Origin: an uncultured Cocleimonas sp.
GTDB lineage: Bacteria; Pseudomonadota; Gammaproteobacteria; Thiotrichales; Thiotrichaceae
DNA: 64,000 nucleotides
Direction: 5' to 3'
Assembly (NCBI RefSeq): GCF_947495625.1
Contig: NZ_CANLZW010000025.1
Span: 1-64,000 of the forward strand
In this document: positions 62 through 62,767 of the stretch, piece by piece
Position numbering within the stretch: the first letter of the stretch is position 1
Layout of the letters: every line of letters starts with the position of its first letter
Made by a program: the position numbers and the translations under genes
The notes under the pieces: model-generated
The model's database searches: none
The model's input: only the letters and a program-made list of their open reading frames with translations
What the model was told of the DNA's origin: nothing

Positions 62-90
62 GTCACCCCCCTACTTTTGAGGCTTTTTTA
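62..90 (+). repeat. C-run repeat, copy 1 (short form)
   Basis: The C-run core GTCACCCCCCTACTTTT is followed by GAGGC and a T-run. The T-run is part of a palindrome (80-98, AGGCTTTTTTAAAAAGCCT) that could terminate transcription in both directions. It lies beyond the 3' end of the minus-strand gene ending at 157. Confidence 0.85.
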
Positions 91-489: not shown

Positions 490-858
490 TTTATTGTTGT
501 TTTTAATGTCGTTTTAATGAGCTTTGAAGCCCGCTTACAAAACGCTCGCATGAAACGAAACGCTTGTATGTAATAGAATCCTTTGCATAATACTTTGACG
601 GATAAATAACGAACTAGTTCCATACAAAGGCTTCTATTTAAAGTTATGTATTAGCCCTTAATACATAAACTCCTTATTACGCAATATAAATGCTAAATGT
701 GCACAAAAAATGGAGAAAATGTGACGAATTGTAAAGAAACATAAAATAGTCACTGATAAATGTTTATTTCTCGCTTTATCTTATGTCATCCTCATCTGAT
801 TTTAATTTACCCCCCCCTACTTTGGGGCCCTTTTTCTGATTAGCGATAACTATTGACG
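490..858. other. Intergenic region between divergent genes
   Basis: No coding sequence seen. It holds a perfect 10-bp inverted repeat (644-653 and 659-668, TTATGTATTA/TAATACATAA, 5-nt loop), a short palindrome GAACTAGTTC (611-620) and C-run repeat copy 2 close to the downstream start codon. Confidence 0.6.
808..836 (+). repeat. C-run repeat, copy 2 (short form)
   Basis: An eight-base C-run, then TACTTT, then GGGGCCC and a T-run: CCCC-loop-GGGG could fold as a compact hairpin followed by T residues. It ends only about 22 bp upstream of the MnmC-like start codon, on the same strand. Confidence 0.85.
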
Positions 859-2121
859 ATGTCTAAAAAAACACCTTCTTGGTTCAATGTTCCAGACTAT
901 GACTGGCAAAAGAAACAAGCGATAGTGATTGGCGCAGGGATCGCTGGCTGCCAAATGAGCTGGCATCTTTCTCAAGCCGGCTGGGACATCACTCTCATTG
1001 ATCGAAATAAAAAAATCGCCAATGAAGCTTCTGGAAATCCAGCGGGAGTTATTTCCCCTAAGATGACATCTAGACCCAGTTTGGGCGAAGATTTTTACAC
1101 GCATAGTTTTCAATACACCTTAGATCAAATAAGCCAGTTAAAAAAACAAGGACTTGAATGGCACGGCTGCGGATTGTTACAACTCTCTCACTATCAACGG
1201 GAAGAAAAGCGCTGGCAACAACTAAAAGAACGTGATTTCAAAGAAGATTTTTTACAGCTTTTAGATGAAGAGGAAACCAGCAAAGTAGCCAATATCCCGC
1301 TACCCTATAAATCCAGTTACTTCCCACAATCCGGATGGATTGACCCTACTCATTTTTGTAATGTTTTAAGTGGAGATAAGCACTGCAAAATACTATTAGA
1401 AACCAAAGCTATTCATTTAGAAAAGCAGGAAAACCTTTGGCACGTTTTGGATGAAAATGACGATTTAATTGCACAGGCAGAAGTCGTGATTATTACAAAT
1501 GGTAAAGATTTAACACAATTCAAACAAACGAAGAATCTACCTACAATGCCTGTAGCGGGTCAAACGACATTAGGCACAGCGAGTGAGTACTCCAGCAAAC
1601 TCAAAACCGTCATTGGTCATGAAGGTTATCTAACGCCCGCCGATACAAAATCAGATCAACATACATTCGGCGCGACGTTTGATAGAAATAACGATAAACC
1701 CAAAATCACACAACAGGCAGATAAAGATAACCTCGCTCAATTAACTCAGTATTTACCAGAGTTTGCAGAATCATTGATAAATACAGAAAGTGCTCACGCG
1801 GCTGTTCGCCTGACAACCCCTGATCGTTTTCCGTATACAGGCGCTATCCCTGACTGGGATTTTTATCGAAAACACTATGATGATTTACATCACGGTAAGA
1901 AGTGGAAGGAATACCCTAAGGCAGAATACCAAAAAGGTTTATTTGTACTGGGTGGGTTTGGCTCTCGCGGTTTAACCACCAGCGGTTACTGTGCAAAATT
2001 ACTAAGCAATATTATTACAAATCAGCCATTCTCGAATGAGGAGAAACCAATTTTACAAAACCTACACCTTGCTCGATATTTGATAAAGGCATTAAAAAAA
2101 GGCTTAAAAGTGGGGGGGTGA
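859..2121 (+). CDS. FAD-dependent oxidoreductase, stand-alone MnmC C-terminal (oxidase) domain
   Basis: A 420-residue protein matching the C-terminal half of MnmC. That half uses FAD to oxidise 5-carboxymethylaminomethyl-(2-thio)uridine at tRNA position 34 before methylation. Visible: Rossmann motif GAGIAG at 25-30 followed by LIDRN, the EASGNPAG segment near 60, LPTMPVAGQ and GYLTP in the middle, RLTTPDRFPYTGAIPD, and the C-terminal GGFGSRGL. The N-terminal methyltransferase half (about 250 residues in fused MnmC) is absent, so the partner must be encoded elsewhere or the role has changed. ATG 859 is preferred over TTG 853; no clear ribosome binding site. The last codons (KVGG and the TGA stop) lie inside C-run repeat copy 3. 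Confidence 0.8.
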   Translation: MSKKTPSWFNVPDYDWQKKQAIVIGAGIAGCQMSWHLSQAGWDITLIDRNKKIANEASGNPAGVISPKMTSRPSLGEDFYTHSFQYTLDQISQLKKQGLEWHGCGLLQLSHYQREEKRWQQLKERDFKEDFLQLLDEEETSKVANIPLPYKSSYFPQSGWIDPTHFCNVLSGDKHCKILLETKAIHLEKQENLWHVLDENDDLIAQAEVVIITNGKDLTQFKQTKNLPTMPVAGQTTLGTASEYSSKLKTVIGHEGYLTPADTKSDQHTFGATFDRNNDKPKITQQADKDNLAQLTQYLPEFAESLINTESAHAAVRLTTPDRFPYTGAIPDWDFYRKHYDDLHHGKKWKEYPKAEYQKGLFVLGGFGSRGLTTSGYCAKLLSNIITNQPFSNEEKPILQNLHLARYLIKALKKGLKVGG

Positions 2122-2122
2122 C
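2093..2122 (-). repeat. C-run repeat, copy 3 (short form), overlapping a gene end
   Basis: Read on the minus strand: TCACCCCCCCACTTTTAAGCC followed by a T-run. It overlaps the last codons and the stop codon of the MnmC-like gene. Copies 2 and 3 therefore bracket that gene as an inverted pair. Confidence 0.85.
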
Positions 2123-6465: not shown

Positions 6466-6580
6466 GTCACCCCCCTACTTTGAGCGGTTTTTTTACTTTA
6501 AAATAATAAAACCATGCCTTTTGGTTCGTTGTCGCTAAACTCCAACATTGCCTCGGCTACGCCTCGGATTAAACACTTTT
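6466..6580 (+). repeat. C-run repeat, copy 4 (long form, type II filling)
   Basis: The core GTCACCCCCCTACTTT is followed by GAGCGG and a T-run, then filling with CCAACATTGCCTCGGCT, closing at AACACTTTT. The filling is shared with copies 7, 11 and 13. It lies between the kinase gene and the carbonic anhydrase gene. Confidence 0.85.
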
Positions 6581-8875: not shown

Positions 8876-9249
8876 AGCTCGATTAAAACACGCTTTGATA
8901 AAACCTTAAATATCACCCCCCTACTTTAGAGCCTTTTTTGTAAAACATTATCCTTCTATCACATACACTCACATTTCTAAATCACCAGAGTTAAACATCA
9001 TTCCACTATTTATCTGTTTCAAACATGTAATTCATATACATATCAAAAAAGAAAAAGGTTCATAAATTATTGATAAATATATCAATTGTAAATTTTCGTA
9101 AAGATGCTTTAATTCAGTGGATCAACTGTTATGGTCGCAGAGTACGCTTTTAAATTAATGAGAACTATTCGAAAAATACTTTTCGTTTTTACTTAAATTT
9201 AGTTCGTTTAGGATTTCATTCAAACAAGGCATTCACCAAAGGAATTATC
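8876..9249. other. Intergenic region between divergent genes
   Basis: AT-rich region with C-run repeat copy 5 near the left end. No further gene or strong hairpin seen. It must hold the promoters of the thioredoxin-fold gene (left) and the glycine-zipper lipoprotein gene (right). Confidence 0.5.
8912..8940 (+). repeat. C-run repeat, copy 5 (short form)
   Basis: Core ATCACCCCCCTACTTTAGA followed by GCC and a T-run, lying between divergent genes. It therefore does not follow a gene on its own strand. Confidence 0.85.
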
Positions 9250-9744
9250 ATGAAAAAACAAACCATACTTCTATCTTGCATTACTGCAGGCGCTCTTCTA
9301 TTAACCGGCTGTTCCACAAATGCTCAGACGGGTGCATTAGTGGGTTCTCTTGTGGGTGCTGGTATCGGAAAATCAACCTCAAATCATCGCGACAAACGTG
9401 CTGTAATCGGTGGTGTACTCGGTGGTATCGTTGGGTCTGCAATCGGTGCAGAGCAAGATAGAGCTAACTACAACCGCTCTGTGAGTAACCAAAAAACTTA
9501 CACAACACCTTATTACCAAGATGGCACTGCGAGTAAAACTGTAACGCAGCAACAGGTTGTGGTTACTCAGCCTGAAGTAGTCTATGTAGAGAGACCTCCC
9601 GCTTATTACTACCCACCTGTAAGCACTTCTATTATTTTAGGTGCAGGCTATTATGGTGGATATAGCAATAGTCACAAAAGGCGTTATTACCGAAACAACC
9701 GATCTCGACATCACAATCGTGTGCGTCACCCAAGACGCCACTAA
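9250..9744 (+). CDS. Glycine-zipper outer-membrane lipoprotein (paralogue 1)
   Basis: A 164-residue lipoprotein with lipobox LLTGC (Cys21). A glycine-zipper segment at about 29-69 (GALVGSLVGAGIGK, then VIGGVLGGIVGSAIGAEQDR) is typical of the SlyB/YMGG 2TM family. The C-terminal half is Tyr/Pro-rich, then Arg/His-rich (about 140-164). Residues 22-70 are almost identical to the gene at 10025, so the two arose by duplication. Likely inserted in or under the outer membrane; glycine-zipper lipoproteins are often linked to envelope stress. ATG 9250 has AAGGA eight bases upstream. A strong terminator follows. Confidence 0.85.
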   Translation: MKKQTILLSCITAGALLLTGCSTNAQTGALVGSLVGAGIGKSTSNHRDKRAVIGGVLGGIVGSAIGAEQDRANYNRSVSNQKTYTTPYYQDGTASKTVTQQQVVVTQPEVVYVERPPAYYYPPVSTSIILGAGYYGGYSNSHKRRYYRNNRSRHHNRVRHPRRH

Positions 9745-9799: not shown

Positions 9800-10024
9800 G
9801 TTGAGCTTCTCAACTATTTTCACTAGACAAAAACCTATAAACTACTGAAATAACTTCCAATTGTAATATTAGGTAAATTTATTAGTGCTCCTGATTTCAG
9901 GTGCTATATTTATGTCGTAATTAGAAGAAAAAATTATCTAGTTGAATTCTTTTCTATTTAGCTAGTTTCTTTGAGGCTTTGTTGACGTTTTACGAACTGA
10001 GCTTCATACACTTAGGTATTTATT

Positions 10025-10450
10025 ATGAAAAAACAAACACTATATTTATCACTCGTTTTAGCAGGAACTGTATTTTTAAGTGCTTGTTCTACGAATGCCC
10101 AAACTGGCGCTTTAGTCGGTTCTTTAGTTGGTGCTGGCATTGGCAAATCAACCTCAAACCATCATGACAAACGCGCTGTAATTGGTGGTGTATTAGGTGG
10201 TATCGTTGGTTCCGCAGTGGGTGCTGAACAGGATCGTGTCAACGCTTATAATAATTCAACGCAAAATGGTGCGGTTTATTCGGCGCCCGTTCAACAACCA
10301 CGTCAGGTGATTGTAAATCGTCAACCTGAATATGTGTATGTGGATCCTTACTATCCTATCAGCCCAACCATTATTATTAGCGGTAGGTATTACCATAGAC
10401 CGATGCATGACAGACGTCACCACCGTGTGCGTTATACGCGTCGCTACTAA
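10025..10450 (+). CDS. Glycine-zipper outer-membrane lipoprotein (paralogue 2)
   Basis: A 141-residue lipoprotein: lipobox FLSAC (Cys21), then a glycine-zipper region that repeats that of the gene at 9250 nearly residue for residue (STNAQTGALVGSLVGAGIG, IGGVLGGIVGSA). The C-terminal part differs in sequence but keeps the Tyr/Pro-rich then His/Arg-rich style. The two genes have separate terminators and unrelated upstream sequences, so they are probably expressed independently. Function unknown beyond the family. Confidence 0.85.
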   Translation: MKKQTLYLSLVLAGTVFLSACSTNAQTGALVGSLVGAGIGKSTSNHHDKRAVIGGVLGGIVGSAVGAEQDRVNAYNNSTQNGAVYSAPVQQPRQVIVNRQPEYVYVDPYYPISPTIIISGRYYHRPMHDRRHHRVRYTRRY

Positions 10451-10572: not shown

Positions 10573-10619
10573 GTTTTAAAGTAGTATTTGAGGCATTGTT
10601 AACCATTAATAATAATTAA

Positions 10620-10756
10620 GTCACCCCCCTACTTTAAGTGACTTTTCATTTTGCTATTTAAAATGACCTAAGGAACTTATGCTTTGCGGAATGATATTAC
10701 GTTTTTGTTTTTTAAAAACGTAAATAGAATTTATGCAGAGCTAGGCGCTTTTTTTA
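10620..10756 (+). repeat. C-run repeat, copy 6 (long form, type I filling)
   Basis: The core GTCACCCCCCTACTTTAAG leads into an ACGTTTTT...AAAAACGT hairpin, then GAATTTATGCAGAGCTAGG, closing at CGC and a T-run. It matches copy 15 along its whole length. The stop codon of the BenE-like gene (10754-10756) lies in the last bases. Confidence 0.88.
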
Positions 10757-16416: not shown

Positions 16417-16447
16417 TTAAAAAAGTGCCCATAAGTAGGGGGGTGTC
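16417..16447 (-). repeat. C-run repeat, copy 8 (short form) inside the isc operon
   Basis: Minus-strand reading GACACCCCCCTACTTATGGG, then CAC and a T-run, between fdx and iscX on the sense strand. CCC...GGG arms followed by T residues could act as a partial terminator. Confidence 0.87.
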
Positions 16448-19542: not shown

Positions 19543-19571
19543 AAAAAACCGGCTATAAGTAGGGGGGTGAC
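19543..19571 (-). repeat. C-run repeat, copy 9 (short form) inside the isc operon
   Basis: Minus-strand reading GTCACCCCCCTACTTATAGCC, then GG and a T-run, between iscA and hscB on the sense strand, just after the iscA stop codon. CTA/TAG arms and the T-run give a weak terminator-like shape. Confidence 0.87.
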
Positions 19572-23408: not shown

Positions 23409-24656
23409 ATGAAAAAATTTGATGTGATCATAATCGGTGCAGGTGCAGCTGGCTTAATGTGCGCGATAGAAGCCGGAAAACGCGGACGCTCTGTTTTAGT
23501 GTTAGAAAAAGCAGACAAAATCGGCAAGAAAATTCTAATCTCGGGTGGTGGTCGTTGTAATTTCACCAATATGTATACCGACGCTGATAACTTTTTATCT
23601 GGCAATCCACACTTCTGCAAATCAGCCTTATCAAGATATACACCCTGGGATTTCGTTGCGCTATTGGAAAGCCACGGATTAAGCTGGACAGAAAAAACAC
23701 TCGGTCAACTTTTTTGTGATCAAAAATCAAAAGCCGTGGTTCAACTATTACACGATGAATGCGATAAAGCTGGCGTTACTATTCAACCTTCATCTGAAAT
23801 CATATCCATCAAAAAAGGGGATGAATTTCTGGTTGCCAGCGAAAAAGAAAATTACGCTTCGGATTCTTTAGTCATAGCAACCGGTGGACCTTCAATTCCC
23901 AAAATGGGCGCTACCGATTTTGCATTACAAGTGGCTGAAACGTTTGATATTGATACCGTAGCCTTCTCCCCAGCTTTAGTGCCCTTTGTTTTCACCATTG
24001 AAACACTAGATTCGTTTATTAAAGACCTTTCTGGCATTTCAACCTATGTAGAAATGAGCGCTGTTAAACACAATAAAAAAGACGCTATAAGTGGGGGGGT
24101 GATTAAAAACGGGGTGACATTAAGTCCACCCTTTAAAGAAAGTATTCTATTTACTCACCGAGGTATTAGCGGTCCGGCAGCATTGCAGGTTTCATCCTAC
24201 TGGAAACTGAGCGATGAGGTTTCTATCAACCTCTTCCCTGGTTTTGATCTATTGGAATGGTTAAAAGAACAGCAATCTGAACACCCGCAAGCAGAATTAA
24301 AAACCATTTTAAATTACAAACTACCTAAACGATTAGCGCAAAAACTCTGTGAACACATCATTACTAAAGAACTGAGTAGCAAAACAATGCGCCAGTTCAA
24401 TGAGTCTGAACTTGAAAGCATCGAACAACAACTTACACAATGGAAACTTTTACCGTCGGGCACTGAAGGCATGCGAACTGCCGAGGTTTCCTTAGGCGGT
24501 GTAGATACGGATGAACTATCTTCTAAAACCTTAGAAACCAAGAAAGTCAAAGGTCTCTATTTTATCGGCGAAGCAGTCGATGTAACCGGACATCTCGGTG
24601 GCCATAATTTCCAGTGGGCATGGGCGTCAGCTTGGTGCGCGGGGCAATTCGTCTGA
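23409..24656 (+). CDS. HI0933/BaiN-family flavoprotein with an in-frame repeat insertion
   Basis: A 415-residue NAD(P)/FAD-dependent oxidoreductase of the HI0933 family (YhiN, BaiN). N-terminal GAGAAGLMCAIEAGKRG with LVLEKADKIGKK, then SGGGRCNFTN, LFTHRGISGPAALQ, EVSLGGV and the C-terminal GEAVDVTGHLGGHNFQWAW. Cellular role unresolved. Residues 223-232 (KKDAISGGVI) are translated from C-run repeat copy 10. Compared with remembered relatives, which go almost directly from the preceding strand to the LLFTHRG motif, this protein has roughly 10-15 extra residues there. The frame stays open, so the protein is probably still made. ATG 23409 lacks a strong Shine-Dalgarno. Confidence 0.88.
   Translation: MKKFDVIIIGAGAAGLMCAIEAGKRGRSVLVLEKADKIGKKILISGGGRCNFTNMYTDADNFLSGNPHFCKSALSRYTPWDFVALLESHGLSWTEKTLGQLFCDQKSKAVVQLLHDECDKAGVTIQPSSEIISIKKGDEFLVASEKENYASDSLVIATGGPSIPKMGATDFALQVAETFDIDTVAFSPALVPFVFTIETLDSFIKDLSGISTYVEMSAVKHNKKDAISGGVIKNGVTLSPPFKESILFTHRGISGPAALQVSSYWKLSDEVSINLFPGFDLLEWLKEQQSEHPQAELKTILNYKLPKRLAQKLCEHIITKELSSKTMRQFNESELESIEQQLTQWKLLPSGTEGMRTAEVSLGGVDTDELSSKTLETKKVKGLYFIGEAVDVTGHLGGHNFQWAWASAWCAGQFV
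24075..24103 (-). repeat. C-run repeat, copy 10 (short form) inside a coding sequence
   Basis: Minus-strand reading ATCACCCCCCCACTTATAGC, then GTC and a T-run. This is a complete short form in antisense orientation to the flavoprotein gene. It adds codons KKDAISGGVI without a frameshift or stop. Confidence 0.88.
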
Positions 24657-24774: not shown

Positions 24775-25893
24775 GTGTCGAATAGATTCGAAAACAATTC
24801 TAAAAAAACACTCCTAATCATTTCATTAATTATGATTTTGGTTGTGCTGTTTGGCTTTGAAAAACTTCTGGGCAATACACGATTTGGTGGTGAAGAAAAT
24901 CAGTCAGTTCGACATATTCGTTTAAAAGAAAACACCCCTAATATTAATAAAATGCTTTCACCAAGTGACGATATAGTAGCGCTTTCTGATAGCTTAGAAA
25001 ACAAGCCCTATTCTTTCAAAATTGATCAGAATGGTTTTATTTTTCCTTCCACTCCTCATCGAGACGCAGACAAGGTCATTGCCTTTATCGGCGGTTCAAC
25101 CACTGAATGCATGTACGTTGATGAAGACAAACGCTTTCCAGCGTTAACAGGGCAATTATTAGAAACCAGCAACAATAAAAAAATCAATGCACTCAATGCA
25201 GGTGTCAGCGGCAATAACAGCATGCATTCCATTAACACCTTGCTTAATAAAATCATACCGATGAATCCAGATATTGCCGTATTACTGCACAATATCAACG
25301 ATCTATCTGTGTTATTGCACGAGAAAACCTACTGGAATAACAACCAGCATCGATCACTCATCGTTGAAGAAGACCATTCGATAAAATCACAGATAAAACA
25401 GCTGTTTCCTAATACCTATACCTTCGCTTACGAAGTAAAACGTAAGCTAATGGGTGATGGCAACGAATTCGATAATTCGGACGATGGGCACAATAAACCT
25501 AAACTCAGCAATGAAAAAATGCTTTCGATGTTCAAAGCTAACCTGAATAGTTTTGTCGAGATTAACAAAGCAAATAGCATCACTCCCGTACTTATGACGC
25601 AAGCGAGTCGATTCACGGAAAAGCCCGACGATGTAATTATGAAAAACCTGCAAAATCTTGATGCAATGGATTTAACTTACAGTGAGTACCGCTCTCTTTT
25701 TCAAGCGATGAATCAAGTCATCCGCACAGTAGCATTGGAAAAGTCAGTATTATTGATTGATCTTGAAAAAGAAGTGCCACCAACCAATCAATATATGTCT
25801 GACCCTGTTCACTTTACTAATTCCGGTTCAGAACTTGTCGCCAAGATTATCTCAGCTAAGCTAGCTCCACTAGTCGAAGAGTTATTAGAATAA
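24775..25893 (+). CDS. Membrane-anchored SGNH/GDSL-type hydrolase
   Basis: A 372-residue protein with an N-terminal membrane anchor (about 11-29) and a periplasmic SGNH-hydrolase-like domain. Block I is GGSTTECMY (Ser near 104), block II has a Gly in NAGVSGNNS, block III the Asn in LLHNINDLS, and block V Asp-Pro-Val-His (DPVHFTNSG) near 350. Such enzymes remove acyl groups from lipids, sugars or cell-wall polymers; the substrate is unknown. GTG start (24775). C-run repeat copy 11 begins directly after the stop codon. Confidence 0.7.
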   Translation: MSNRFENNSKKTLLIISLIMILVVLFGFEKLLGNTRFGGEENQSVRHIRLKENTPNINKMLSPSDDIVALSDSLENKPYSFKIDQNGFIFPSTPHRDADKVIAFIGGSTTECMYVDEDKRFPALTGQLLETSNNKKINALNAGVSGNNSMHSINTLLNKIIPMNPDIAVLLHNINDLSVLLHEKTYWNNNQHRSLIVEEDHSIKSQIKQLFPNTYTFAYEVKRKLMGDGNEFDNSDDGHNKPKLSNEKMLSMFKANLNSFVEINKANSITPVLMTQASRFTEKPDDVIMKNLQNLDAMDLTYSEYRSLFQAMNQVIRTVALEKSVLLIDLEKEVPPTNQYMSDPVHFTNSGSELVAKIISAKLAPLVEELLE

Positions 25894-26010
25894 GGTCACC
25901 CCCCTACTTTTATGAGGTTTTTTCTTATTTAAAAGAAAATCTCACCCTTCGGGTCGTCGTCATTACATTCCAACGTTGTCTCGGCTGCGACTCAGCTTGG
26001 CACTTTTCTT
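25894..26010 (+). repeat. C-run repeat, copy 11 (long form, type II filling)
   Basis: GTCACCCCCCTACTTTTATGAGG plus a T-run, hairpin ACCCTTCGGGT, CATTCCAACGTTGTCTCGG, and the closing GGCACTTTT. Nearly identical in order and length to copy 13. It starts right after a stop codon on the same strand. Confidence 0.9.
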
Positions 26011-28773: not shown

Positions 28774-28802
28774 AGTCACCCCCCTACTTTAAGCCTGTTT
28801 TT
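28774..28802 (+). repeat. C-run repeat, copy 12 (short form)
   Basis: GTCACCCCCCTACTTTAAGCC and T-run, upstream of the DUF1835 gene and antisense to both flanking genes. It is the last copy before the 12.7-kb repeat-free interval. Confidence 0.86.
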
Positions 28803-43097: not shown

Positions 43098-43403
43098 TAA
43101 CCTAGGCAACGGAAAAGTATAATGCTAGTTGCACAGGCTTATAACCCGGATTGCGATTCCACAAGGTATGATGATACGCCCACTGGATTGATAGTGACTT
43201 TGTCATTTAAGCTGAAATATCATTCTTTAAACAAACACTATTATGCAAAGGTCACCCCCCTACTTTTATGAGGTTTTTTCTTATCCTTAAAAAAATCTCA
43301 CCCTTAGGACCGTCGTCATTACATTCCAACGTTGTCTCGACTCATTCTCGGCAAAACCTCGGCTGGGCACTTTTTTAAAACTAAATTTCCGTTTTAATTA
43401 GTT
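43098..43403. other. Intergenic region after rhlE
   Basis: Convergent gap holding C-run repeat copy 13 (43250-43378) and otherwise nothing recognisable. Confidence 0.5.
43250..43378 (+). repeat. C-run repeat, copy 13 (long form, type II filling)
   Basis: GTCACCCCCCTACTTTTATGAGG plus a T-run, then CATTCCAACGTTGTCTCG, and the closing GGGCACTTTTTT. Nearly the same as copy 11, 17 kb away. Confidence 0.9.
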
Positions 43404-43995: not shown

Positions 43996-44024
43996 GTCAC
44001 CCCCCACCTTTTAGCCGGTTTTTA
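43996..44024 (+). repeat. C-run repeat, copy 14 (short form)
   Basis: GTCACCCCCCACCTTTTAGCCGG and a T-run, between divergent genes. CCACC appears instead of CCTAC, a variant shared with copies 16 and 24. Confidence 0.86.
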
Positions 44025-45072: not shown

Positions 45073-45207
45073 AGTCACCCCCCTACTTTTAAGTGACTTT
45101 TCATTTCGTAGTTTGAAATGACAAAAGGAACTTATGCTATGCGGAATGATATTTACGTTTTTTTGCTTAAAAACGTAAATATCATTTATACAGAGCTAGC
45201 CCTTTTA
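45073..45207 (+). repeat. C-run repeat, copy 15 (long form, type I filling)
   Basis: GTCACCCCCCTACTTTTAAG, then GTGACTTTTCATT, hairpin TTTACGTTTT...AAAACGTAAA, then CAGAGCTAGCCC and a T-run. It lines up with copy 6 across about 135 bp. Confidence 0.9.
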
Positions 45208-45305
45208 AACAGTGCTCACCATCTTCTTCCTCCTATCTATTTAACAGCAAATAAAACACAATAGTGCTTTACCGCCCTTTCACTTAACCTGTCGACTTAG
45301 CCTTA

Positions 45306-46631: not shown

Positions 46632-47076
46632 AGCCCCACTAGCTTTAGAACAACAACGCGTTTTATTTTCTAAAAACGAGTTTGGCATTTATGCTTTACG
46701 AGGCGCTTTTTCGTAAAAAGTGCCCCAAAGGTGGGGGGTGTCATTTTTACCGAAATTTAAAGTAACTAAGCTAACGTCAGTTGTACAATTCCCGGTTTCA
46801 CGCTAATTGCTAATTTGATTAATACGCCTTATGAGGCATGTATTTTGCGTATTCGATTTCACAATAATTCTAAGACAAAACAGCAAATAGTTATTAGCTA
46901 CTTCTCGCAAGTTCAAACGGCACATCGCACTGATGTAACTATCTCTCGTATTTAAGTCATTAATAATTCAGTTTTCATACAGATACATTATGTAAAAATA
47001 CGAATATAAAAAATCAATAACAAAAATAAGAATAATCTGACTGATGATTAGAACATCATTCAATGCGGAGATAAAA
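46632..47076. other. Intergenic region before the accessory strip
   Basis: Holds C-run repeat copy 16. The remaining AT-rich 300 bp show no gene or strong hairpin. Confidence 0.5.
46656..46743 (-). repeat. C-run repeat, copy 16 (long form, type I filling)
   Basis: Minus-strand reading GACACCCCCCACCTTTGGGG, then CACTTTTT, then a GCGCC segment, then AAATGCCAAACTCG with an AACGCG-side hairpin. CCCC/GGGG arms are present. Antisense to the gene before it. Confidence 0.82.
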
Positions 47077-47505
47077 ATGAAAAAACTAATTTTAGTGAGT
47101 TACCTAATATTCCTCATTGGATGTTCTGGAAAAGCGCCAATCATAAATGCCGATGAAGTCACAGATCTCCTGCACAATATTATTATAAAAACGGTTACTG
47201 CTGATAAAAAAGGGGCTCAAGAGTTTGAAAAGATCAACCATAAACTCATTGAAGATTTTGGCACTTCATATCACGATATGCTTTTAGCTTGTGTCAAAAA
47301 GAAGGAAATAAAAGATAAAGAACAGCGTCAATTGTTAAATTTTTTCTATGATATGGAAGCAGCTGTCGTAAAAGGAAAAAGACTTAATGTTAACGAGTTA
47401 TTAGCCTCAGAAACATACACTAAAGAAATGATAAATATTTCAAATGAATTAATATTAACTTGTGGAATGGAACCTATTAATAAATATATGAAATATATGA
47501 ATTGA
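47077..47505 (+). CDS. Small lipoprotein of unknown function
   Basis: A 142-residue protein with a lipobox (FLIGC, Cys near residue 16), hence lipid-anchored in the envelope. The mature part is predicted mostly helical and Lys/Glu-rich, with two more cysteines (near LLACVKKK and LTCGMEP). No family recognised. ATG 47077 follows GGAG by six bases; the longer reading to 47044 is rejected. First gene of the accessory strip. Very AT-rich. Confidence 0.65.
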   Translation: MKKLILVSYLIFLIGCSGKAPIINADEVTDLLHNIIIKTVTADKKGAQEFEKINHKLIEDFGTSYHDMLLACVKKKEIKDKEQRQLLNFFYDMEAAVVKGKRLNVNELLASETYTKEMINISNELILTCGMEPINKYMKYMN

Positions 47506-47709
47506 TTACGACCAATATTTGCATACTTATCAATAAGTTATTATTCAGCATTATGTAATCGAATAAAATTCTCAAACTTGAAACTAAGAAACTGTTTCTA
47601 ATACAACTAACTTTAAATTGGCATTTTGTCAGCCTGTCATTTGGTTAATTCATTATTTACTAATTGCTGCATGGGAAAAACCATATTGGGGCGCTTAAGT
47701 AGTTAATTT

Positions 47710-47740
47710 TGACACCCCCTACCTTTTAGGCACTTTTTTA
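47710..47740 (+). repeat. C-run repeat, copy 17 (short form)
   Basis: GACACCCCCTACCTTTTAGG, then CACTTTTTT. The best example of the short form: CCTA-cctt-TAGG arms and a T-run. Confidence 0.88.
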
Positions 47741-47856
47741 TTATTTCGTTTATTGTTTAGAGGTTAGTAGTGACAAAACAGCAAGAAATTAAGATAAGGC
47801 CGAAGTTTCTTGCATCAGTATTTTTGCTACTCCGTGTGTTATTACCATTCACCAAC

Positions 47857-47874
47857 ATATAACAAAACACTTAA
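47857..47874 (+). repeat. Motif ATATAACAAAACACTTAA (pair with 48473)
   Basis: Sixteen of 18 bases match 48473-48490, on the other side of the DUF3291 gene. The start recalls one end of integron attC sites (TAACAAA), but the matching far end is not convincing. Confidence 0.45.
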
Positions 47875-48013
47875 ATAGCAAATATAAGTAAGTCTTCTCA
47901 TTTACGTTTGCAGTTTCGGTTAAATTAATCTTATAGTTGCATGTTATTAAATTAAACATGTCGTTATTCAATACACAAAGCAACAATCACGAATAAAAGT
48001 TTAGGAAGCATAA

Positions 48014-48466
48014 ATGTCAAACTATCAGCTTGCACAAATTAATATAGCTAAAGCTAGAGATACGATGGACTCTGAAACAATGAAGGGATTTGTTGATCGA
48101 CTTGATGAAATTAACGAGTTAGCTGATTCTCAACCTGGCTTTATATGGCGACTTCAAACAGAAGAAGGTGATGCAACTTCAATTCAAGCTTTTGATGATC
48201 CTACGCTTATTGTAAATATGAGTGTATGGGCAGATATTGATTCACTTAAAAACTTCGTTTATAAATCAATCCATATAGAATTAGTGCGTGATAGAGATGC
48301 ATGGTTTAGTAAAATGCTTCAAGCACATCAGGCTCTTTGGTGGGTTCCAGCCAATCATATTCCTTCTGTTGAGGAAGGCAAAATTAGACTTCAACATCTG
48401 GAAGATAATGGCCCATCAGAATATGCATTTACGTTTGCCAAGCCATTTCCTGCATCCCAATCTTAA
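48014..48466 (+). CDS. DUF3291-family protein
   Basis: A 150-residue protein. The whole length matches DUF3291: YQLAQINIAKARDTMDSE at the start, FVDRLDEINELADSQPGFIWRLQTE, MSVWADIDSLKNFVYKSIH, and LWWVPANHIPSVEEGKIRL. The fold is dimeric alpha/beta-barrel (ABM/EthD-like); no reaction is established, though related folds include monooxygenases. ATG 48014 follows AGGAAGC. Often carried by accessory or cassette DNA in other bacteria (family recollection). Confidence 0.82.
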   Translation: MSNYQLAQINIAKARDTMDSETMKGFVDRLDEINELADSQPGFIWRLQTEEGDATSIQAFDDPTLIVNMSVWADIDSLKNFVYKSIHIELVRDRDAWFSKMLQAHQALWWVPANHIPSVEEGKIRLQHLEDNGPSEYAFTFAKPFPASQS

Positions 48467-48472
48467 GAAACG

Positions 48473-48490
48473 ATATAACAAACTACTTAA
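48473..48490 (+). repeat. Motif ATATAACAAACTACTTAA (pair with 47857)
   Basis: It begins 7 bp after the DUF3291 stop codon and matches 47857-47874. The pair encloses one gene, as cassette boundaries would. GGCGTTTTATAT follows at about 48532-48543. Confidence 0.45.
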
Positions 48491-48559
48491 GTGTAAATTA
48501 TCGCAAGCACTCCCATTTTACCGCTGAGACAGGCGTTTTATATTTACGATGCAATAACA

Positions 48560-48590
48560 AAAAAAAGTGCCTTAAAGTACGGGGGTGTCA
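48560..48590 (-). repeat. C-run repeat, copy 18 (short form)
   Basis: Minus-strand reading GACACCCCCGTACTTTAAGG, then CACTTTTTT. The C-run is shortened to five and TAC changed to GTAC, as in copy 19. Just upstream of the membrane protein gene. Confidence 0.87.
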
Positions 48591-48654
48591 CATTAATAAT
48601 CTAAAGAAAAAACTATTTGCTCATTTCATCGTAAGTACAATCGTTTTTATTCCT

Positions 48655-49038
48655 TTGCTGTTCTGGTTAATTTCAAACCATGATTCTAAACAATTAAATT
48701 CAATTATCATTGCAGTTGTCATTCAAAATTCTGTATTTGCCTTCATGTTTTATTTTTTAGAAGCATCATCAATTAATCGAGCCTTTGAAGAGTCTTTTGG
48801 TATCAAACAACTTACACCTGAAGAACATAAAAAACTTCCAACTCTAAAAGACATCCTATTAATCTTAATTGCAGTAGCATTGGGTTCTTTATTCACCTAT
48901 TTTTTAGTAAGTAACAATATAGAATCTGATACCCTGATCTATTATTTCGGTATTTTTGTGTTAATTTTTTTCTGGTTAACTCATGTGTGGGCTTCATATC
49001 GCAAATATGTAAAAGCTAAATCATTACAGGACAATTAA
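48655..49038 (+). CDS. Small membrane protein with unclear start
   Basis: A 127-residue reading with three or four hydrophobic segments (about 14-36, 60-80, 88-105). No family recognised. TTG 48655 is the only usual start, but the frame stays open to the left and encodes a better first helix (LKKKLFAHFIVSTIVFIPLL) between about 48601 and 48657 without ATG, GTG or TTG. Either translation starts at a rare codon such as ATT (48592) or the original start was lost when C-run repeat copy 18 came to lie there. The C-terminus is basic (YRKYVKAK). Confidence 0.5.
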   Translation: MLFWLISNHDSKQLNSIIIAVVIQNSVFAFMFYFLEASSINRAFEESFGIKQLTPEEHKKLPTLKDILLILIAVALGSLFTYFLVSNNIESDTLIYYFGIFVLIFFWLTHVWASYRKYVKAKSLQDN

Positions 49039-49110
49039 ACATCCACAAAACAATAACAAGTTTTACTGTATTCACTATTTCTCGGCGTTTCTTAGCATCA
49101 AGGTATTTCT

Positions 49111-49656
49111 ATGAAAGTAGTCTATGAAACCGAAAGATTGATTGTTAGGCGATTTAATCTTAATGATGCTGAGTTTATTGTTAGATTATTAAATGAAGAA
49201 TCCTTTATCCGCTATATTGCTGATAAGCAGGTTAAAACGAAAACAGATGCCGTGAACTATCTCAATGACGGCCCTATATCGAGCTATCGAACATATGGTT
49301 TTGGACTGAATTTGGTGATCCTGAAAGGAACCGATACACCCATAGGTATGTGTGGTTTGTTAAAAAGAGAAGAACTCGATTTCCCAGATTTGGGGTATGC
49401 TTTTTTACCTGAGTTTTGTGGTAAAGGCTATGCGAGTGAGGCGGCCATTTCTGTTTTAAATGTAGAAATGGCTACTCATCAAATAGATACGATTTTGGCA
49501 ATTACGTTACAAAATAATGTACCTTCAATAAAACTGTTAAAGAGAGCAGGCTTCAGTTTACACGGAACAATTGAACTCTATGGTTCGCTAAATGATGTGT
49601 ATGAGTATCGTATGCAAAAGGAAAAAACACCTAAAAGTACGGGGGTGTGCTTATAA
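49111..49656 (+). CDS. GNAT acetyltransferase, RimJ/RimL type
   Basis: A 181-residue acetyltransferase: ETERLIVRRFNLNDAEFIVRLLNEE at the N-terminus, LGYAFLPEFCGKGYASEAAISVL as the acetyl-CoA loop, and NVPSIKLLKRAGFSLHG as motif B. It acetylates an N-terminus, amino acid or small molecule; target unknown. The last residues (about 172-181) are encoded by C-run repeat copy 19, so the natural C-terminus has been replaced or extended. Confidence 0.86.
   Translation: MKVVYETERLIVRRFNLNDAEFIVRLLNEESFIRYIADKQVKTKTDAVNYLNDGPISSYRTYGFGLNLVILKGTDTPIGMCGLLKREELDFPDLGYAFLPEFCGKGYASEAAISVLNVEMATHQIDTILAITLQNNVPSIKLLKRAGFSLHGTIELYGSLNDVYEYRMQKEKTPKSTGVCL
49622..49650 (-). repeat. C-run repeat, copy 19 (short form) across a gene junction
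   Basis: Minus-strand reading GCACACCCCCGTACTTTTAGG, then TGTTTTTT. It encodes the end of the GNAT protein and, in another frame, the GTG that starts the next gene. Confidence 0.86.
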
Positions 49657-50045
49657 TTGATAAATATATTCCATTTATGATTCTTCTAGCCTTATTTGTC
49701 CTATTTAATGGTTATATTTTAACTAGAAAAATACTCTTTTTAAGAGTGGCTGTTTCTACAATAGGTATTGTAAAAAAGGTCGGTTCTGAAAGTTCAGACA
49801 GTGGTTCATCTGTTTATTATCAAAATGTAGAATTTGATAATGATCAGGGAAAAACATTTACAGTTTCGTCGGTTATGGGAAGTAGCAGTGTCAGGGATTC
49901 TGAAGGCAGCGCTGTGAAAGTTTTATATCTTTCTGATGATCCTGAAAATGCTGTTATCAATGACTTTAAAAATATTTGGGGTTTTGAAAGTATTGTTTTT
50001 GTCATTGCCTGTGTGGCGTTGTATGTTTACTTTGAGCAGATTTGA
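49647..50045 (+). CDS. DUF3592-family membrane protein
   Basis: A 132-residue protein with two membrane helices (about 8-30 and 110-128) around a beta-rich extracytoplasmic domain (VSTIGIVKKVGSE...YYQNVEFDNDQGKTFTV...VKVLYLSDDPENAVI), the DUF3592 layout. Function unknown. The GTG 49647 start lies in repeat copy 19 and overlaps the GNAT end by 10 bases; ATG 49677 is the alternative. Coupled translation is possible. Confidence 0.7.
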   Translation: MLIIDKYIPFMILLALFVLFNGYILTRKILFLRVAVSTIGIVKKVGSESSDSGSSVYYQNVEFDNDQGKTFTVSSVMGSSSVRDSEGSAVKVLYLSDDPENAVINDFKNIWGFESIVFVIACVALYVYFEQI

Positions 50046-50053
50046 AATAGTAG

Positions 50054-50088
50054 CCTTACTATATATCCTTACTATATATCCTTACTAT
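50054..50088. repeat. 13-bp tandem repeat, 2.7 units
   Basis: CCTTACTATATAT repeated twice and then partly, directly after the DUF3592 gene. A possible slippage site. Confidence 0.85.
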
Positions 50089-50215
50089 GAGTCGTACTCT
50101 TAACAGTTTATCAACAGACCCACTTCAATCAAACTGCTGAACTAGGTATTATGTATCTGCTACGTTTTTTGTACCTATCAATCGTACTCTTATCAAATTT
50201 AGAGAAGTTTCAAGA

Positions 50216-50728
50216 ATGGATATTATCGAAAAAGCATTAAAATTTGCGACAGATGCGCATGAGGGTCAAACCAGAAAATATACTGGAGATCCTTATATTG
50301 TTCATCCTATTGCCGTTTCAAAAATAGTGGAATCAGTTACTGATGATAAAGAAGTAATTGCATCTGCCCTTTTACATGACACTGTGGAAGATACTGATGT
50401 ATCGCTTGAGCAAATTGAGCAGGAGTTTGGTCCGAGAGTGGCGCTTTTAGTTGAGAATTTGACGGATGTTTCAACGCTGGATCAAGGTAATAGAAAAACC
50501 AGAAAAAGAATTGATCTTGAACATACCGCTAAAGCAATTCCTGAAGCGAAGACCGTAAAACTAGCTGATTTAATTCATAATTCTGGCTCAATTACTAAAT
50601 ACGATACTAAATTTTCTGTCACATATATGAGTGAAAAAAAGCAACTTTTAGCGGTGCTTAAAGAAGGTGATGAAACACTTTATAAAAAAGCAGAACACAT
50701 CGTGATGAGCTACTATAAAAACACATAA
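50216..50728 (+). CDS. HD-domain phosphohydrolase (RelA/SpoT hydrolase-like)
   Basis: A 170-residue single-domain protein resembling the (p)ppGpp hydrolase half of SpoT (MESH1/HD type). Metal residues: His30 (YIVHPIAV), His54-Asp55 (ALLHDTVEDT) and Asp118 (KLADLIHN). No synthetase, TGS or ACT domain, so it may be a small alarmone hydrolase. In an accessory context it could also be an antitoxin-like partner, but no synthetase gene is next to it. ATG 50216 has a weak ribosome binding site. Confidence 0.85.
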   Translation: MDIIEKALKFATDAHEGQTRKYTGDPYIVHPIAVSKIVESVTDDKEVIASALLHDTVEDTDVSLEQIEQEFGPRVALLVENLTDVSTLDQGNRKTRKRIDLEHTAKAIPEAKTVKLADLIHNSGSITKYDTKFSVTYMSEKKQLLAVLKEGDETLYKKAEHIVMSYYKNT

Positions 50729-50813
50729 TTTGTGAGCATCATACTCACACAATTAAAACTGATTGTGCTACAAACTCCATATACTACATCACTAATTTTC
50801 ACGAGTAATCGTT

Positions 50814-51437
50814 ATGAACATTGAAGTTTGGTTAGCTTTCGTAGCTGCATCAGTCATTCTGCTTATCATTCCCGGACCAACGATTCTGACTGTAATTAGC
50901 TACTCTATATCACATGGGTATAAAGCAAAAATCCCGCTAGTTTTGGGTGTAACGCTTGGCGATTCCACCGCACTTGCTTTTTCCTTGCTTGGCTTGGGCG
51001 TACTGTTAGCAGAATCTGCTGTTTGGTTTCAGGTGGTTAAATGGCTGGGTGGACTCTATCTAATTTATTTAGGTGTGAAATTATTTATGGCTGGCGTTAA
51101 TCCGCCACATTTATCTAAACCTGATGCCCGTGTTTCAAGCTGGAATTTGTTTGTAAATACGTATCTGGTTACTGCGTTAAACCCGAAAGGTATTATTTTC
51201 TTTGTTGCCTTCTTTCCTCAGTTTATAAATTCAACGACTAATCCGGGTACTCAAATCTGGATACTTTCATCGACATTTGTAGCTCTAGCTACTTTAAATG
51301 CCACACTGTATTCTGTTTTTGCGGGCAAAGCTCGTCAAATACTGTCATCTACAAAAGCTCAAAAACGTTTTAATATAGGTGGCGGATCTATACTAACTGC
51401 CGCAGGAATATGGGCATTATCGGCTAAACAACCATGA
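50814..51437 (+). CDS. LysE/RhtB-family amino-acid exporter
   Basis: A 207-residue exporter with six helices. The family opening WLAFVAASVILLIIPGPTILTVISYSISHG, the middle NLFVNTYLVTALNPKGIIFFVAFFPQF, and the C-terminal helix are all present. It exports amino acids such as homoserine, threonine or lysine; substrate unknown. ATG 50814. Confidence 0.9.
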   Translation: MNIEVWLAFVAASVILLIIPGPTILTVISYSISHGYKAKIPLVLGVTLGDSTALAFSLLGLGVLLAESAVWFQVVKWLGGLYLIYLGVKLFMAGVNPPHLSKPDARVSSWNLFVNTYLVTALNPKGIIFFVAFFPQFINSTTNPGTQIWILSSTFVALATLNATLYSVFAGKARQILSSTKAQKRFNIGGGSILTAAGIWALSAKQP

Positions 51438-51453
51438 CATCTCAGGTCATTAC

Positions 51454-51654: not shown

Positions 51655-51732
51655 CACCCCCAGTCTTTGAATGATTTTACGTTTTTTTTTAAAAAACGTA
51701 AAAAGAATTTATGCAGGGCTGAGCACTTTTTT
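51653..51732 (+). repeat. C-run repeat, copy 20 (long form, type I filling)
   Basis: GACACCCCCAGTCTTTGAATG, then hairpin TTTTACGTTTT...AAAACGTAAAA, then GAATTTATGCAGGGCTGA and the closing GCACTTTTTT. It overlaps the stop codon of the gene before it. Confidence 0.88.
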
Positions 51733-56233: not shown

Positions 56234-56263
56234 GGTCACCCCCCTACTTTTAGCGGTTTTTTT
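56234..56263 (+). repeat. C-run repeat, copy 22 (short form)
   Basis: GTCACCCCCCTACTTTTAGCGG and T-run, 45 bp after the STAS-like gene on the same strand; it could terminate that gene. Confidence 0.88.
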
Positions 56264-57259: not shown

Positions 57260-57387
57260 AGACTTAGACCTTTGACTTATCGTGTTCTTTATTAGATTAC
57301 ATTAGTGTTTAATACATGATTAGTCACGAAAAATTATCTGATCTTTAAATACTCTAGATCTAGATCTTTATATTTACTCATCATTTA

Positions 57388-57470
57388 GACACCCCCCTAC
57401 TTTGAATGACAATTCGTTTTTGTTTTTAAAAAACGATTTTGGAATTTATGCAGAGCTAGGGCTTTTTTTA
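57388..57470 (+). repeat. C-run repeat, copy 23 (long form, type I filling)
   Basis: GACACCCCCCTACTTTGAATG, hairpin ATTCGTTTTT...AAAAACGATT, then GAATTTATGCAGAGCTAGG and a closing GC plus T-run. A decayed short relic (AAGTAGGGCGATGA) follows at about 57480-57493. Confidence 0.9.
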
Positions 57471-60856: not shown

Positions 60857-60914
60857 CACACCCCCCACCTTTAAGACCATTTTTAAAAAATATGCCTAAA
60901 AGGTGGGGGGTGTC
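60857..60914. repeat. C-run repeat, copies 24a and 24b, facing each other
   Basis: A plus-sense copy (60857-60887) and a minus-sense copy (60884-60914) form a head-on pair. The arms ACACCCCCCACCTTT and AAAGGTGGGGGGTGT are fully complementary, giving a 15-bp GC-rich stem. It lies between the convergent LamG and mqo genes, with T-rich sequence beyond the C-run on each strand, and could terminate both. Confidence 0.9.
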
Positions 60915-62410: not shown

Positions 62411-62767
62411 AATAATTCCCGCTTAAAAAATTATAATGGCGATAGTATATATTGTATATTTTGACTTTGTTATTTCTAACTAGATACTAAGGTTAATTCT
62501 CATATTGATTATTAGAGTTGGGTGTTATTAGAATAACGAGCAATTAAAGCTGCGAGCCCCACCAGTCGGTTAAAATATGAAAGCTAATTGTTCATTTTTT
62601 GTAAAAAAGTGAAAACCATAAAACGTTCCTTATAAAAAATAGGCTATAAGTAGGGGGGTGTCATTCTTAATTGAAAAAAGGCAATCGTCCCTTTTACTAT
62701 GGTTATTTGAATGGCGAATTGCTAAAGCATAGACTCATCTTAATCTAATCAAACAGAGGTCACTTGC
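62411..62767. other. Intergenic region between mqo and the MBL gene
   Basis: 357 bp between divergent genes. Holds C-run repeat copy 25. AT-rich stretches near both genes may be promoters, but none can be fixed. Confidence 0.5.
62633..62662 (-). repeat. C-run repeat, copy 25 (short form)
   Basis: Minus-strand reading GACACCCCCCTACTTATAGCC, then a short run ending in T residues. Between divergent genes. Confidence 0.87.

Follow-up and report, generated by a model that had tools for sequence, protein, structure and literature searches.

Inside a flavoprotein gene in the window analysed here (the window being the whole 64-kb stretch of DNA) lies a copy of a short repeat that leaves the reading frame unbroken. 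The locus raises the question of what kind of element this is, and of how it came to be carried and preserved within a protein. The gene, the loop and the repeat copy are located as follows.

23409..24656, + strand: HI0933/TIGR00275-family flavoprotein gene, encoding an aminoacetone oxidase family FAD-binding enzyme (ORF, TIGR00275, PDB 9x7q, 3v76, 2gqf)
24063..24122 (ends approximate), + strand: expanded loop between two beta strands, from alignments and as the lowest-confidence segment of the model
24075..24103, + strand: G6 element within the flavoprotein gene, with its A-tract at 24075-24080 and its core AAGTGGGGGGGTG at 24089-24101

An in-frame repeat copy in a flavoprotein loop

The open reading frame at 23409-24656 (+) encodes 415 aa and scores 394 bits against TIGR00275 in a profile search. 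The element, AAAAAAGACGCTATAAGTGGGGGGGTGAT at 24075-24103, is read as KKDAISGGVI by codons 223-232 (24075-24104: AAA AAA GAC GCT ATA AGT GGG GGG GTG ATT), and the frame remains intact. The claim of an earlier, sequence-only reading, that a complete short element lies within this HI0933-family gene, is confirmed from the sequence, and the element proves to be a member of a genome-wide repeat family.

The homologues compared came from 12 genomes of the genus (our own included), nine of which gave a match, one of them too short and left unused, and from 80 named loci, the nearest being Thiotrichaceae MAGs at 64-65% identity. Two of the 80 named loci repeat loops of genus genomes, and 87 of the 88 sequences could be parsed, L096 being unparsable. 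The shorter loop that had been suggested for relatives, just before the LLFTHRG motif, is indeed present: measured from SGI to LFTH, 71 of the 87 homologues have a loop of 24 aa, 12 have one of 25 aa and a single one reaches 28 aa (24-28 aa in 84 of 87), compared with 43 aa here, 30 aa in the sister species G001 and 50 aa in G010. Relative to the 25 aa typical of core-less congeners, the extra length here is 18 aa (54 nt), which exceeds the element itself.

Among these 87 homologues, the core (≤2 mismatches) occurs in the gene only in our genome (G000), G001 and G010, as AGT GGG GGG GTG in the identical place and frame, and the three flavoproteins form one gene-tree group (support 84/94). The other 84 have no core and a loop of at most 28 aa, so the residues seen here do not recur in homologues from repeat-free genomes, and the insertion is confined to one lineage, as had been suspected. 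VE and SGGV are separated by equally many residues in G000 and G010, while G001 lacks eight of these codons and keeps the core; a short GCTRT repeat adjoins this 24-nt gap in the G001 loop. The simplest history suggested by these sequences would be an old expansion that included the element, followed in G001 by a 24-nt deletion that spared the core. Given that G001 retained the core despite losing eight codons, the core appears to have been preserved in the three species whereas most other loop codons were not.

An AlphaFold2 model built from 26 sequences has a mean pLDDT of 91.5 and the fold of 3v76 and 2gqf. Only residues 225-232 fall below 50, and the model places them between strands 211-219 and 242-248. 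This predicted position between two strands, at the sole segment of such low confidence, supports in part the idea of an exposed loop.

A G6 repeat family and its dialects

The G6 element extends over ~32 bp and consists of an A-tract, ~5 bp, a second A-tract, a run of six or seven G (G6-7) and TG. The pattern TAAAAGTRGGGGGGTGWC, allowing ≤2 mismatches, has 532 + 421 matches (953) in the 4.60-Mb genome, compared with 4 + 1 (5) for the same pattern read backwards; ~950 copies of one strong consensus are far above chance. At ≤1 mismatch the density is one copy per 3.4 kb. The consensus, built on 153 copies from G000 (464 kb) and 135 from G001 (400 kb) with ≤2 mismatches in the core, reads A-tract, two unconstrained positions, GCCT, a variable position, W, AAGTRGGGGGGTG, another variable position, C and TTT, with positions 0-12 fixed at 88-100%, R excepted. 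It is non-palindromic in its short form and has no terminal inverted repeats. The two A-tracts are centred ~10.5 bp apart, clearly in G000, G001, G007 and G008 and more weakly in 15 copies of G009 and G010. The A-tract is in its usual position in 124 of the 138 cores of the G000 sample, a hairpin module separates core from arm in 8, and 6 are of other kinds (several coding); the corresponding numbers for 143 cores in the G001 sample are 130, 3 and 10. A search of viral contigs with one 17-mer of the motif gave no match.

The hairpin module of these long forms is ~53 bp in length (..ACGTTTTTG..AAAAACGT..GAATTTATGCAGAGC) and is situated between the G6 core and the A/T-tract arm. With nhmmer we found four module matches in the window (10606-10754, 45144-45209, 51667-51732 and 57374-57469), once apparently two in tandem, nine in 400 kb of G000, two in 200 kb of G001 and none in the G005-G008 samples. 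Long forms account for ~6% of copies (8/138) in the G000 sample, and the module may be a mobile palindrome nested in the element, its target.

To place the family taxonomically, we used the 12 genomes of the genus and 51 from seven other genera of the family; an order-level search gave the same 63. Exact copies of AAAGTRGGGGGGTG number 628 in G000, 479 in G001, 232 in G008, 607 in G009, 645 in G010 and 287 in G011, with 0-4 in the other six genomes of the genus; outside the genus there are none in 48 of 51 genomes and 1-4 in the remaining three. The GTAG6 form is thus confined, among these 63 genomes, to one genus of the family. Dialects with this layout occur in related species (GTAGGGGGGTGAC, GGTGGGGGGTGTAC and ACAGGGGGGATGGGT). 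Aligned on the G-run, the forms of G000 (aAAAAAnngcCtaAAAGTAGGGGGGTGaC), G008 (AGAAAAggsnwAAAAAGgtGGGGGGTGTAC) and G007 (AAAATATaTAAAAAAcaGGGGGGATGGGT) have in common two A-tracts and a G6-7 core. The form AAACAGGGGGGATGG, found via over-represented words, occurs in exact form 363 times in G007, 69 times in G004 and at most once in each of the other 61 genomes, and the G008 form AAAGGTGGGGGGTGTAC (≤1 mismatch) has 241 copies in G008 and at most nine elsewhere.

An abundant dialect is present in 8 of the 12 genus genomes, the members other than our own being drafts of which small stretches were read. G003 and G005 have few variant copies; no abundant version was found in the 98 kb of G006 that were sampled, nor in G002 with the known patterns. 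A candidate dialect of G003, ACAAATCATCGAAAAA..GGGGGG(G)..TGG, is represented by ~6 distinct copies in <47 kb (L142, L143, L157, L005), where the overlap of L142 and L005 inflates the raw counts; the G003 and G004 samples hold some sequence twice.

We compared this distribution with a tree of ComEC, the inner-membrane DNA import channel, from 11 of the 12 genomes (G010 is missing). The GTAG6 group of G000, G001, G009 and G011 forms one branch (100/99), as does the ACAG6 group of G007 and G004 (100/100). Genomes that are poor in copies or lack them fall into no single group. The dialects match the gene-tree phylogeny.

Placement and persistence of the copies

In 864 kb of sequence, 244 of 289 element matches (84%) lie outside ORFs, although ORFs make up ~84% of the sequence, a share slightly understated because the sample includes 16 kb of N. 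ORFs were taken from a greedy longest-ORF script rather than a gene finder, and counts at two mismatches include some chance matches within ORFs, where we found 27 sense and 18 antisense matches. Genes flanking the 244 non-ORF copies are directed, relative to the element, ++ in 58 cases, -- in 59, +- in 76 and -+ in 40, with 11 at edges. Given these mixed directions, the element is bound to neither gene starts nor gene ends.

Close pairs of elements are more frequent than expected. Of 275 successive intervals in the G000 and G001 stretches, 15 are shorter than 80 bp, against 6.5 expected; this total pools partly orthologous stretches of the two genomes, so that some pairs represent the same loci. 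Thirteen of the 15 are -/+ inverted pairs, 11 of them spaced by 40-42 bp. Taken separately, G000 has 7 short intervals among 135, every one of them -/+ at 41-42 bp, and G001 has 8 among 140 (six -/+, two +/-).

Element orientation follows GC skew at 216:91 (2.4 to 1) across 0.94 Mb of segments from draft genomes. Control runs of five or more G are oriented 152:108 with the skew, and 30:31 in intergenic DNA; the element is above the control (Fisher p 0.004). A naive expectation from composition, 1.13 to the 8th power or 2.7, would be enough by itself to account for the bias, but actual G-runs are less biased than this or, intergenically, unbiased.

The window contains 24 copies of the element. 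Those outside the flavoprotein gene are listed here, with their state in G001 where noted.

62..76, - strand: G6 core, intergenic
808..822, - strand: G6 core, intergenic; retained in G001
2108..2122, + strand: G6 element that closes ORF 853-2121 at its 3' end and provides the stop TGA; in G001 the core is absent here and the A-tract arm is kept
6466..6480, - strand: G6 core, intergenic; retained in G001
8912..8926, - strand: G6 core, intergenic; retained in G001
10606..10754, - strand: long form with G6 core at 10620-10634, hairpin module(s) and second arm; core stretch retained in G001
16433..16447, + strand: G6 core, intergenic; retained in G001, with its 3' flank drifting
19557..19571, + strand: G6 core, intergenic; retained in G001
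25895..25909, - strand: G6 core directly beyond the stop of ORF 24775-25893
28775..28789, - strand: G6 core, intergenic; retained in G001
43251..43265, - strand: G6 core, intergenic
43996..44010, - strand: G6 core AAGGTGGGGGGTGAC, intergenic
45074..45088, - strand: G6 core, followed by the module copy at 45144-45209
46728..46742, + strand: G6 core AAGGTGGGGGGTGTC, inside the 46633-51445 segment
47711..47725, - strand: variant G6 core AAGGTAGGGGGTGTC, inside the 46633-51445 segment
48575..48589, + strand: variant G6 core AAGTACGGGGGTGTC, inside the 46633-51445 segment
49635..49649, + strand: variant G6 core in frame with ORF 49111-49656, at its 3' end; inside the 46633-51445 segment
53350..53364, + strand: G6 core, intergenic
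56235..56249, - strand: G6 core, intergenic
57374..57469, - strand: long form with G6 core at 57388-57402, hairpin module and second arm
60857..60914, - strand at 60857 and + strand at 60900: inverted pair of G6 elements between convergent genes
62648..62662, + strand: G6 core, intergenic; retained in G001

Two further features of the window may be recorded. The 4.8-kb segment 46633-51445 is shrunk to ~0.2 kb in G001, and three of its four elements have variant cores (AAGGTAGGGGG, AAGTACGGGGG); it is perhaps an import from a relative of slightly different dialect. Direct copies of 239 nt at 9230-9468 and 10005-10243, 74% alike and belonging to the neighbouring ORFs 9250-9744 and 10025-10450, are probably a local gene duplication.

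Persistence was assessed by comparing 151 G000 copies with the matching sequence of G001, of which 84 were anchored on both sides and 67 were not (59 without an anchor, 8 with anchors too far apart). The core is kept at the same place in 72 of the 84 anchored copies and missing in 12. Of these 12 core-less loci, three resemble chance matches in ORFs and two are one-base changes in the core run; among the 11 that were examined, there was no empty site with a target duplication. The closest approach to an empty site is locus C1_55689, where G001 has a 25-nt gap across core and arm. In 71 G000/G001 pairs, core identity is 95.8%, compared with 70-83% for the flanks and 84% for the A-tract; the core value is partly a selection effect, as pairs were picked for having the core, and the retention of 72/84 is the safer figure. 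At position 13, directly past the core, an A of G000 is matched by G or C of G001 in 14 orthologous pairs, and the opposite combination does not occur. Existing copies therefore shift together toward a species-specific form, which would not be expected of transposition relics.

For the coding copies, we hand-picked eight cases from 51 matches, some genes being counted in both species, and aligned them to solved relatives. The alignment of an ABC transporter missed its motif site and is uninformative. In this small hand-picked sample, the motif coincides with no insertion in five of the seven informative cases: an isochorismatase-like protein (LKSRGVTEV), QueA (IRANKSPKVGGCLLL, compared with 1vky), a hybrid histidine kinase (NAIKYTQSGGVTF), dimethylglycine dehydrogenase and the FadB-like enzyme of G001, where the relative is longer. 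PDB relatives were used for the isochorismatase because its close orthologues are confined to G000 and G001, with remoter relatives in G009 and G011. The two true insertions are one of 10 aa in DNA polymerase II and that in the HI0933 flavoprotein.

These results bear on the resemblance to Rickettsia palindromic elements (RPEs) that the flavoprotein copy had suggested. RPEs are palindromic, hairpin-forming repeats whose in-frame insertions add peptide to protein genes, and the copy studied here is likewise in frame and in the loop of a protein. For the family as a whole the resemblance is not supported: the short form is non-palindromic and ~32 bp long, anchored copies are mostly kept in place and the coding cases sampled are usually free of insertion. 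The share of insertion-free cases points the same way as a result for uptake signal sequences (USSs): finding gaps in 24% of alignments, Redfield and colleagues argued by the same logic against an insertional origin of USSs (PMC1626085).

An uptake-signal reading and its rivals

Because it combines a strong consensus, a core with two AT tracts, inverted pairs, a preference for non-coding DNA, coding copies that in a small sample are mostly not insertions and dialects that follow phylogeny, the repeat is, by analogy with known systems, probably an uptake-signal-like tag of the USS/DUS kind, carried by a Thiotrichaceae genus and built on an unrelated G6 core. Such an element would act as double-stranded DNA, presenting two A-tracts ~10.5 bp apart beside the G6-7 core, and would most likely be read by the type IV pilus/ComEC import machinery, leading to preferential import of own-kind DNA. 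Tagged alleles would be re-imported and recombined, so that copies accumulate and stay uniform, and drift of each lineage's receptor would give rise to dialects. Copies would settle where their cost is lowest, namely in intergenic DNA, in codons that spell the motif harmlessly and in permissive loops. The flavoprotein copy would then be an old in-frame loop expansion common to three species, in which the core was preserved and the rest of the loop drifted. We infer uptake, receptor and recombination as the preserving force. ComEC itself is found in 11 of 12 genus genomes, the exception being G010, a motif-rich, 89%-complete draft; since it also occurs in motif-free genomes and among the controls (10 of 14 genomes), its presence is required by the uptake reading but is not diagnostic of it.

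In the USSs of Haemophilus influenzae and other Pasteurellaceae (Hin and Apl types), two AT-rich tracts lie to one side of the core and the whole reaches 32 nt; copies run into the hundreds or thousands, types are clade-specific, inverted pairs are closely spaced, non-coding DNA is preferred and coding copies are mostly not insertions (PMC1626085, PMC12616744, PMC7811141). The G6 element is alike in its one-sided two-tract layout within ~32 nt, in copy number and clade types, in its inverted pairs and non-coding preference and, as far as the small sample goes, in its mostly insertion-free coding copies. Unlike these USSs, it has an unrelated G6-7 core, nested hairpin modules, a larger share outside ORFs (84% of matches, versus 35% for USS in H. 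influenzae), a lower density and an orientation with GC skew, and its uptake is a proposal; known USS/DUS are described as having a density of about one per kb and no significant orientation bias (PMC1626085). Neisseriaceae DUSs form dialects along phylogeny with a conserved inner CTG and occur in inverted pairs (PMC3630211), and the G6 element resembles them in its phylogeny-following dialects, its constant inner part (G6) and its inverted pairs. It differs from them in sequence and in the A-tracts beside its core, the DUS being a 10-mer without flanking motifs (PMC1626085). Counting against the uptake reading are the GC-skew orientation, the lower density, the hairpin-containing forms (~6%), the 12 of 84 cores missing in G001 (with the gap at C1_55689), the 67 of 151 copies that could not be anchored, the failure to find ComEC in the draft of G010 and the lack of an abundant version in 98 kb of G006 and, for the known patterns, in G002.

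A contrasting explanation is a non-autonomous mobile repeat, MITE- or REP-like, whose copies are relics spread by a transposase and whose in-gene copy is one RPE-like insertion. The very strong consensus fits this, as do the long forms, an internal hairpin module being a mobile-element trait, the true insertions in the flavoprotein and DNA polymerase II, the gap over core and arm at C1_55689 and the strand preference. The short consensus, however, has no terminal inverted repeats, anchored copies are mostly in place with cores better conserved than flanks, old copies change dialect in place (14:0 at position 13), most informative coding copies are free of insertion and the differing loci examined show no target-duplication empty site. 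With REP/RAYT systems and interspersed palindromes, the repeat shares short abundant intergenic copies, some hairpin-containing forms and a GTRG tetranucleotide, which is a REP trait; unlike them, its short form has no evident hairpin. The RAYT-type Y1 transposase (PF01797) is absent in G001 and G008-G011, five of the eight genomes with an abundant dialect, and we rejected a REP/RAYT identity on this ground. PF01797 is present in G000, G004 and G007, and also in G002, G003, G005 and G006, which have no abundant dialect. A Rickettsia- or MITE-like mobile insertion is weakened by the persistence of copies in place, the absence of target-duplication empty sites among the loci examined and the coding copies free of insertion.

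The element could instead be a polar chromosome-maintenance motif of the KOPS, Chi or SRS kind, oriented with replication and recognised by a motor such as FtsK or RecBCD, for which its G-richness, its ~1000 copies and its orientation with GC skew beyond that of other G-runs would speak. Motors of the FtsK/RecBCD type are conserved, though, whereas the dialects vary within one genus and GTAG6 is absent from 48 of 51 other-genus genomes; moreover, a ~32-bp consensus with two A-tracts goes far beyond an octamer, most matches (244/289) lie outside ORFs and inverted pairs cancel the polarity. Because of the strand bias, the low density and the nested hairpin module, we continue to give some weight both to a mobile origin, which we consider unlikely, and to a polar chromosome motif, which we consider distinctly unlikely. 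An RNA-level role, as a bidirectional terminator or 3'-UTR signal, is highly improbable: inverted pairs could give hairpins with A/T tracts, and convergent neighbours are the commonest single arrangement (76/244 non-ORF copies), but single copies have no evident hairpin and matches within ORFs occur in both senses. A terminator, promoter or RNA signal was rejected as gene direction shows no fixed relation to the element.

Our literature search, with most subscription papers outside its reach, found among the best-matching papers listed no report of uptake signals in Thiotrichaceae. A term search of a paper on transformation genes of Piscirickettsia, formally still of the Thiotrichales, gave no mention of uptake sequence, uptake signal, USS or DUS (PMC12955456). 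Within the literature covered, uptake signals are described for Pasteurellaceae and Neisseriaceae only, and their origin is therefore argued from two cases. We put at about even the chance that self-DNA uptake signals arose independently in a third bacterial family, with a G6 core and clade-specific dialects in this Thiotrichaceae genus, and that the force maintaining them holds the core in a protein loop across species despite codon change. If the uptake-signal reading is true, the genus would add an independent third example, in which an unrelated core is set in a USS-like layout and several dialects are live, and it would allow one to test directly whether import machineries in general require AT tracts next to the core. 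In the flavoprotein gene, a repeat of this sort is seen to reshape a loop of the protein. Should the motif not serve uptake, ~1000 preserved 32-bp sites with fast-changing dialects would still want explanation.

Preference for a replication strand would, if the element is an uptake signal, set it apart from the known signals, for which no such property is reported. As a separate observation on strand, in the G000 and G001 samples position 13 is A in 105 of 194 leading copies and 19 of 95 lagging copies (p 2e-8), and position -1 is T in 45 of 194 leading and 43 of 95 lagging copies.
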